Below, piece after piece: positions 4,035-39,250 of a stretch of DNA of 44,420 nt. This stretch comes from Planctomycetales bacterium (GTDB taxonomy: Bacteria > Planctomycetota > Planctomycetia > Isosphaerales > Isosphaeraceae): the NCBI GenBank assembly GCA_027449865.1, contig DAIDKV010000136.1, positions 1 through 44,420 on the forward strand, written 5' to 3'. Position 1 is the first letter of the stretch. Each line of letters begins with the position of its first letter. A program made the position numbers and the translations under genes. The notes under the pieces are model-generated. The model made no database searches. It saw only the letters and a program-made list of their open reading frames with translations, and was not told where the DNA came from.

Positions 4035-5393
4035 ATGACGACTGATCCGATGAACCGCCGCGAGTTTGCCGGGGCAGCCGGGATCGCGGCCGGGGCGGCC
4101 GTGATGCTGGGCGCTCCGGCGATCGGCAAGAGCGCGCCGGCCAGCGAGAAGGTCCGGCTCGTCCTCATTGGCGCGGGGAGCCGCGGCAATCAGTTGCTCG
4201 GCTCGTTTCTGGAGCTCCCGGAGGTCGACATCGTCGGTATCGTCGACGTCGACGACCATCACGCCGGGGAGACCGCCGAGCGTGTCAAGAAGGCGAAGGG
4301 GAACAACCCCGACGCCACCCGCGACTACCGCCCGACGCTCGATCGCAAGGATGTCGACGGCGTGATCATCGCCACGCCCGACCACTGGCACGCCCTTCCC
4401 GCGATCCAGGCCGTGATGGCCGGCAAGGACGTTTACGTCGAGAAGCCCGTGGCGCATAACATCGCCGAGGGTCAGGCCATGCTTCAGGCTGCCCGGAAGA
4501 CCAACCGGGTCATGGCCGTGGGCACTCAGCAACGTTCCTCATCGCACTTCCAGAAGGCCGTCGAGGTCGTTCGATCGGGCGCGCTCGGAAAGGTCTTCTG
4601 GGTGCAGACCTGGAATTATGAGAACATCAGCCCAACTGGGATCGGCAAGTTTCCGGACGGCGAGGCGCCTTCGCACGTCGACTACGAGCGATGGCTCGGC
4701 CCGGCACCCCTGCGGCCGTTCAATCCCAACCGCTTCCACCTCCTCTTCCGCTGGTTCTTCGACTATGCCGGCGGAATGATGAGCGACTGGGGTGTTCATC
4801 TGAATGATATCGTTCTTTGGGCGCTCGACGCGAAGGGACCGCGGTCGGTCGACACCACCGGCGGTATCTTCACGAGCGACGATAACCGCGACACGCCCGA
4901 CACGATGCAGGTTGTCTATGAGTTTCCCGAGTGCGTACTGACCTACTCGATGCGCAAGGGGAACGGGCTGAAGTTCAACGGCCACGACTACGGTATCCTT
5001 TTCTGCGGGACCAACGGGAGTCTCCTGCTCGACCGGAGCGGCTTCGAGATCATTCCCGATCACACCGTTTTGCCCTACGGAATCCGGATGGTCCAGGGCG
5101 ACCGGCCGCTCCGGAAGATCGATCTGAAGGCCGAGAAGGTCAAGGGAGACGACGGCCAGGATCCGCACGTGAAGAACTTCGTCGAGTGCATGAAGACACG
5201 GGCACGTCCGACCTCCGACATCGAGATCGCCCACCGTTCGACGAATACCTGCCACCTGGGGAACATCTCGTACAAGCTCGGCCGGAAGCTCTTCTGGGAC
5301 GTCGAGACCGAGTCGTTCAAGAACGATCCCGAGGCCAACGCCCAGCTTCGCCGCGAACCGCGCAAGGGGTACGAACTTCCGGGGATGGGTTGA
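4035..5393 (+). CDS. Tat-exported Gfo/Idh/MocA family oxidoreductase
   Basis: A 452-residue NAD(P)-dependent sugar-type oxidoreductase. The N-terminus carries a twin-arginine signal (NRREF at residues 7-11, followed by a Gly/Ala-rich hydrophobic stretch to APA), so export by the Tat system is expected. The Rossmann fold begins at VLIGAGSRG (about 44-51). The family EKPVAHN motif is near residue 136, and the C-terminal substrate domain has FFDYAGGMMSDWGVH. This signal-bearing subtype is greatly expanded in Planctomycetes; most members have no known substrate. The start was taken at MTTDPMNRREF because GAGAAAGGG precedes it and the Tat motif then lies at the N-terminus. A strong intrinsic terminator follows immediately. 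Confidence 0.9.
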   Translation: MTTDPMNRREFAGAAGIAAGAAVMLGAPAIGKSAPASEKVRLVLIGAGSRGNQLLGSFLELPEVDIVGIVDVDDHHAGETAERVKKAKGNNPDATRDYRPTLDRKDVDGVIIATPDHWHALPAIQAVMAGKDVYVEKPVAHNIAEGQAMLQAARKTNRVMAVGTQQRSSSHFQKAVEVVRSGALGKVFWVQTWNYENISPTGIGKFPDGEAPSHVDYERWLGPAPLRPFNPNRFHLLFRWFFDYAGGMMSDWGVHLNDIVLWALDAKGPRSVDTTGGIFTSDDNRDTPDTMQVVYEFPECVLTYSMRKGNGLKFNGHDYGILFCGTNGSLLLDRSGFEIIPDHTVLPYGIRMVQGDRPLRKIDLKAEKVKGDDGQDPHVKNFVECMKTRARPTSDIEIAHRSTNTCHLGNISYKLGRKLFWDVETESFKNDPEANAQLRREPRKGYELPGMG

Positions 5394-38604: not shown

Positions 38605-38650
38605 GCCGAAGGTGATGATCCTGATCGAGGTCTGAAGAGGGAGAACCGCC

Positions 38651-39250
38651 ATGCCGCTGAAGATCCTGGTCTACTCCGATTACGTCTGACCGTTCTGCTA
38701 TCTGGCGGAGTTTCCGCTACGAGAAGCGATCCAGGGCAAGGACGTCGAGGTCGAATGGATGCCGTTCGAGCTTCGGCCCGAGCCCCATCCGACGCTGCGT
38801 CCCGAGGGCGAATATCTCCAGCGGGCGTGGTCTCAGGCGGTCTACCCGATCGCCCGCCGCATGGGCGTGCCGATCGTCTTGCCACCGGTCTCGCCCCAGC
38901 CGCACACCCATCTGGCATTCGAGGGCTTCCAGTACGCCCGGGAGCAAGGCCAGGGGAACGACTACAATCATCGGGTTCTGAAAGCGTTCTTCGTCGAGGG
39001 CCGTGACATCGGCGACATCAACGTGCTGACGAAACTCGCGGGAGAGATCGGCCTGGACGAACCGGAGTTTGAGGAGGCGCTACGGTCCCGGAAGTATCAG
39101 GAGGCCCACCGCCGCGCTCTTCGGCACGCCTACGAGGAGGCAGGTGTGAGCGGCGTGCCGATGTTCGTCATCGGAGGACAAATCCTGACCGGCTTGCAGG
39201 CCCGAGAGACGCTGGAGGCGGTCATTGGGGAGGAGTTGGCGAATCCGTGA
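38651..39250 (+). CDS. DsbA/FrnE-like thiol oxidoreductase, candidate selenoprotein (in-frame TGA at codon 13)
   Basis: A 199-residue thioredoxin-fold protein if TGA 38687-38689 is read through. The start MPLKILVYSDYV is followed by TGA, then Pro-Phe-Cys16-Tyr-Leu-Ala-Glu. In related DsbA/FrnE proteins this site is C-P-F/W-C, so TGA replaces the attacking first cysteine, giving U-x-x-C. The frame after it is intact to 39250. It has the all-helical insert (FEGFQYAREQGQG, HRVLKAFFVEG) and the cis-Pro loop GVPMFVIGG (Pro170). AGAGGGAG lies seven bases before ATG 38651. The TGA is followed by C, a weak termination context. A SECIS-like stem-loop follows. An annotation starting at 38759 would lose the active site. 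The alternative is a recent nonsense mutation or sequencing error. Confidence 0.7.
38703..38719 (+). promoter_or_regulatory. SECIS-like stem-loop downstream of the in-frame TGA
   Basis: TGGCGGA (38703-38709) pairs with TCCGCTA (38713-38719), seven pairs including one G-U, around the loop GTT (38710-38712). The loop begins 20 nt after the TGA. Bacterial SECIS elements are short hairpins within the coding region, about 16-37 nt downstream of the UGA, with a G in the first two loop positions. Both conditions are met. The three-nt loop is at the small end of what is known. Confidence 0.5.

Follow-up and report, generated by a model that had tools for sequence, protein, structure and literature searches.

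Based on the reading frame, orthology, a full selenocysteine (Sec) machinery, a conserved TGA, a conserved hairpin and the predicted fold, the FrnE/DsbA-like thiol oxidoreductase gene at positions 38651-39250 (+) of the window (the whole stretch of DNA analysed, 44,420 nucleotides) is almost certainly a true selenoprotein gene, with the UGA at 38687-38689 predicted from sequence to encode Sec. The earlier note had proposed Sec insertion at this codon. That proposal is supported by the sel genes of the source genome, by the conservation of the TGA and by a bacterial SECIS (bSECIS) hairpin, a conserved feature that the note did not contain. The gene is real and well supported, and it belongs to the described family of DsbA-like UxxC selenoproteins and not to a new kind.

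Reading frame and the in-frame TGA

On reading the sequence, the ATG at 38651 was found to be preceded by AGAGGGAGAACCGCC, with a purine stretch resembling a ribosome binding site at 38636-38645 (+). Twelve sense codons, MPLKILVYSDYV, lead to the TGA at 38687-38689 (+), which is followed by Pro-Phe-Cys and 183 further codons up to the terminal TGA of the frame at 39248-39250, giving a product of 199 residues with the active site U13-P-F-C16 if the internal TGA is read. The cis-Pro loop is formed by Val169-Pro170, and this Val-Pro pair is conserved. The frame described in the earlier note, from the ribosome binding site to the cis-Pro loop, is thereby confirmed. The note had also expected routine annotation to begin at 38759 and to miss the active site, and a 163-amino acid ORF lies exactly there (38759-39250, +). 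Routine annotation strips the catalytic residue from members of the family.

The read-through product matched the Pfam DSBA domain (PF01323) with an E value of 4.7e-34 and 118.3 bits against a cut-off of 25.6. The only NCBIfam model that matched it scored 40.8 bits, far under the cut-off of 190. In the alignment with Cys homologues, the single TGA falls precisely on the first catalytic Cys of the DSBA domain, giving UxxC as residues 13 to 16, as the earlier reading had anticipated. Residues Y8, S9, D10, P14 and C16 were invariant in 42 homologues.

Conservation of the active-site codon

Orthologues were sought in 397 genomes of the class, and a wider scan covered one genome per species for 84,980 species. 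A close orthologue was present in seven of the 397 genomes. The source genome and five others, the latter at 76-83% identity (G019 and G278, 82%; G284, 81%; G001, 77%; G350, 76%), carry one TGA each at the identical codon, and the seventh (G228, 72% identity) has TGC in its place. The wider scan returned 80 best loci; most were from Bacillaceae, Paenibacillaceae and their relatives and shared 57-70% identity. An active-site TGA was found in 12 Bacillota-type homologues (60-64% identity), while 66 rows had TGT or TGC at this codon. On the alignments, the position of the TGA exceeds what chance would give, being on the first catalytic Cys and at the same codon in the five planctomycete and 12 Bacillota-type loci.

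These data bear on the reading of the TGA as a true stop in a recent pseudogene or as a sequencing error. The codon is one substitution away from TGC or TGT, and a lone in-frame stop is typical of an early pseudogene. Against this, the 17 related loci share the position of the stop codon and have no other within the aligned gene, and pN/pS is about 0.2 on either side of the TGA. The earlier note had named a TGC or TGT on resequencing, or scattered nonsense mutations in close relatives, as grounds for giving up the Sec reading; the same TGA in independent assemblies excludes a sequencing error, and the relatives show a single TGA each. We therefore consider a pseudogene or error highly improbable.

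In pairwise comparisons with the five orthologues, pN/pS was 0.00-0.41 before the TGA, 0.11-0.26 from the TGA to Met37 and 0.20-0.51 after it. By this sequence measure, purifying selection is acting on either side of the TGA. Since the upstream stretch is selected as protein, neither a true stop nor a start at Met37 fits. The latter reading, in which translation begins at 38759 to give the 163-residue protein and the upstream stretch stays untranslated, has in its favour that no conventional ORF in the frame is longer. It conflicts with the conservation of codons 1-12 and 14-36 as protein (pN/pS 0.0-0.4), with the invariant residues at positions 8 to 16, and with the thioredoxin fold, whose first strand and helix lie upstream of Met37; we regard such a start as very unlikely indeed.

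The hairpin downstream of the TGA

A bSECIS hairpin with a 7-bp stem and a 3-nt GUU loop (38710-38712) was found at 38703-38719 (+), 20 nt 3' of the UGA, in agreement with the four published bSECIS constraints (PMC13188914). At -8.9 kcal/mol, its stability was equalled in one of 200 dinucleotide shuffles and in 0.08% of synonymous recodings. Folded by itself, the 42-nt stretch had only a slight advantage over shuffled sequences (z -1.7). Within the six planctomycete genes, silent sites just after the TGA were more often fixed than elsewhere (7/9 versus 22/84, p 0.004). Planctomycetes and bacilli share the motif GCGGAGNNNCCGCT, down to the third positions at which Ala, Glu and Pro codons are free to vary: each of the 18 main-family TGA forms has it, against only one of the 66 forms with Cys (Fisher p 3e-16, uncorrected for relatedness and scoring a distant homologue, L025, as a miss). 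The core pairs hardly vary, and no compensatory covariation was to be had in the upper stem; support for the hairpin thus comes from silent-site conservation and from the contrast with the Cys forms. No Rfam family matched the hairpin or the window.

Three Cys forms may retain traces of this element. The Paenibacillus locus L070 (4037-4070) keeps the SECIS motif, and most of it is also kept in L064 (Paenibacillus, 4037-4070), where the genome has no selA. Both look like relics of lost Sec, although single cases could be chance. In L109, the Cys form of G228, a hairpin is kept where the Sec forms have their SECIS, a possible relic of a change from Sec to Cys.

Selenocysteine machinery

All four components that the earlier note had wanted sought, selA, selB, selC and selD, are present in the 8.48-Mb source genome. 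The tRNA-Sec (selC) scored 73.2 bits and has the anticodon TCA, and selA (505 bits), selB (370 bits) and selD (383 bits) each scored above the curated cut-off. Planctomycetes are known Sec users (PMC4807772). Sec use is common in this group, as selA exceeded its cut-off in 30 of 45 genomes from the same bacterial family. Among 40 rows, selA accompanied the TGA in 17 of 17 genomes versus 11 of 23 genomes bearing Cys (p 0.0003, uncorrected for relatedness, with too few independent pairs).

Decoding of the TGA as a residue other than Sec, whether through suppression to give Trp or Cys or through an altered code, has nothing but the open frame to recommend it and is extremely unlikely, since the gene's own terminator is TGA, the homologues show Cys at this position and never Trp, and the genome has a complete Sec system and the gene a SECIS-like hairpin.

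Predicted fold and function

The AlphaFold2 model (pLDDT 93.7) is a thioredoxin fold with a helical insertion, in which the first strand comprises residues 3-9 and residue 13 stands immediately N-terminal of a helix at 14-18. Since the first strand starts at residue 3, there is no room for a signal peptide, and the protein is predicted to be cytosolic and FrnE-like. The earlier note had left the choice between an envelope and a cytosolic thiol oxidoreductase; the cytosolic assignment stands and the envelope one does not. The product shows the traits of the FrnE subfamily, namely a DsbA-like thioredoxin fold, no signal peptide and a CPxC-type site, here UPFC. Cys16 is its sole Cys, and a C-terminal CxxxxC motif is absent from the whole product; many but not all FrnE proteins have this motif, which is thus no strict mark of the subfamily.

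From known family chemistry we infer the following course of events. SelB with Sec-tRNA(Sec) would bind the GUU-looped hairpin just 3' of the UGA, and Sec would be inserted as residue 13 to give a cytosolic FrnE/DsbA-type enzyme whose redox centre reads U-P-F-C. Substrate disulfides or GSSG would be attacked by Sec13 as nucleophile, and the mixed selenenylsulfide would be resolved by Cys16, adjoining cis-Pro170. Such an enzyme may serve as a cytosolic disulfide reductase or isomerase with a role in disulfide and oxidative-stress handling. None of seven neighbours in the window recurs beside the orthologues, so the surroundings of the gene offer no hint of the substrate. The genes that flank it in the window encode a sulfatase (PF00884/PF16347; 36896-38563, +) and a deaminase (PF00383; 39327-39782, -), and neither is conserved beside the orthologues.

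Relation to known families

The selenoprotein family, which the earlier note called uncommon, is not new. DsbA-like UxxC selenoproteins (COG2761, PF01323) were described from Sargasso Sea data in 2005 (PMC1088965) and again from GOS data as 'DsbA 1' (PMC2398784), appear in a genome survey table with the figures 41 and 45 (PMC5029168), and are counted as a family in a 2026 review, under the name 'DsbA-like protein form 1' (PMC13188914). Compared by description, the published forms share with our gene the Pfam domain, Sec at the first catalytic position of U-x-x-C, a bSECIS with an apical-loop G and widespread Cys homologues. They come from marine metagenomes, Deltaproteobacteria, Clostridia and others, while the genes reported here are from planctomycetes and Bacillaceae. 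We take COG2761 to be the FrnE group. A Sec-containing FrnE has also been reported from green algae (PMC6627142). A partial literature search found no paper naming this protein in planctomycetes or Bacillaceae, and with the present data Planctomycetota and Bacillaceae each gain a well-supported selenoprotein.

The best PDB match by both sequence (E 9e-24) and fold (TM 0.86) was Deinococcus radiodurans FrnE (DR_0659; PDB 5cnw, 5co3, 5xwh), ahead of other DsbA-like proteins, YjbH, HCCA isomerases and DsbM. The literature describes FrnE as a cytoplasmic disulfide reductase linked to oxidative-stress tolerance, and its cytoplasmic location and CP(W/F)C active site, as described, resemble those of our protein (PMC8945050). 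The D. radiodurans enzyme differs in having Cys at both active-site positions and a C-terminal CxxxxC, whereas the planctomycete protein has Sec first and Cys16 only; FrnE of D. maricopensis and S. roseofulvus likewise lacks the C-terminal CxxxxC (PMC8945050). The Cys homologues of Bacillaceae and relatives, which are similar to our protein at the level given above, have the same site as CPFC but carry Cys for Sec, and all but one of them lack the SECIS motif. Listeria Lmo1059, a GSSG reductase with a CPFC site (PMC10715225), was compared by description and is a lead for activity only.

Evolution of the Sec and Cys forms

All planctomycete rows fall together on a single branch with an SH-aLRT support of 100, and at least six or seven changes of the Sec/Cys state are required on a tree that is poorly resolved. 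A single origin of all Sec forms was weakly rejected (p-AU 0.033), the tree being otherwise poorly resolved. The small number of planctomycetes with the gene, together with its closeness to Bacillota, suggests horizontal transfer. A plausible but somewhat doubtful scenario has a Sec-encoding allele, accompanied by a single near-identical SECIS hairpin, passing between Bacillota and Planctomycetota; it would have switched at least six times between Sec and Cys, leaving relic hairpins in some Cys forms (L070, in part L064 and perhaps G228). Close Sec/Cys pairs, such as G278 (Sec) and G228 (Cys), both of genus code g38, offer material at hand for measuring what an FrnE-type enzyme gains from selenium.

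L025 (1042-1596, -; genome G014) is a distant DsbA-like homologue of 34% identity from the same bacterial family. Its first active-site codon is also TGA but its hairpin differs, and it probably represents a second Sec-DsbA lineage. In Litchfieldia salsa, a second gene copy, L110 (G401:C28:230800-231900), has the active-site TGA, an extra TGA replacing a conserved Trp and no cis-Pro, and seems to be a duplicate in decay, next to an intact copy with TGA (L111). The protein of L086 (JAGGRA010000054.1), recorded as 'Pseudomonas sp. ISL-84', clusters with Cytobacillus (support 99), which points to a probable labelling error or Bacillaceae contamination in this record.
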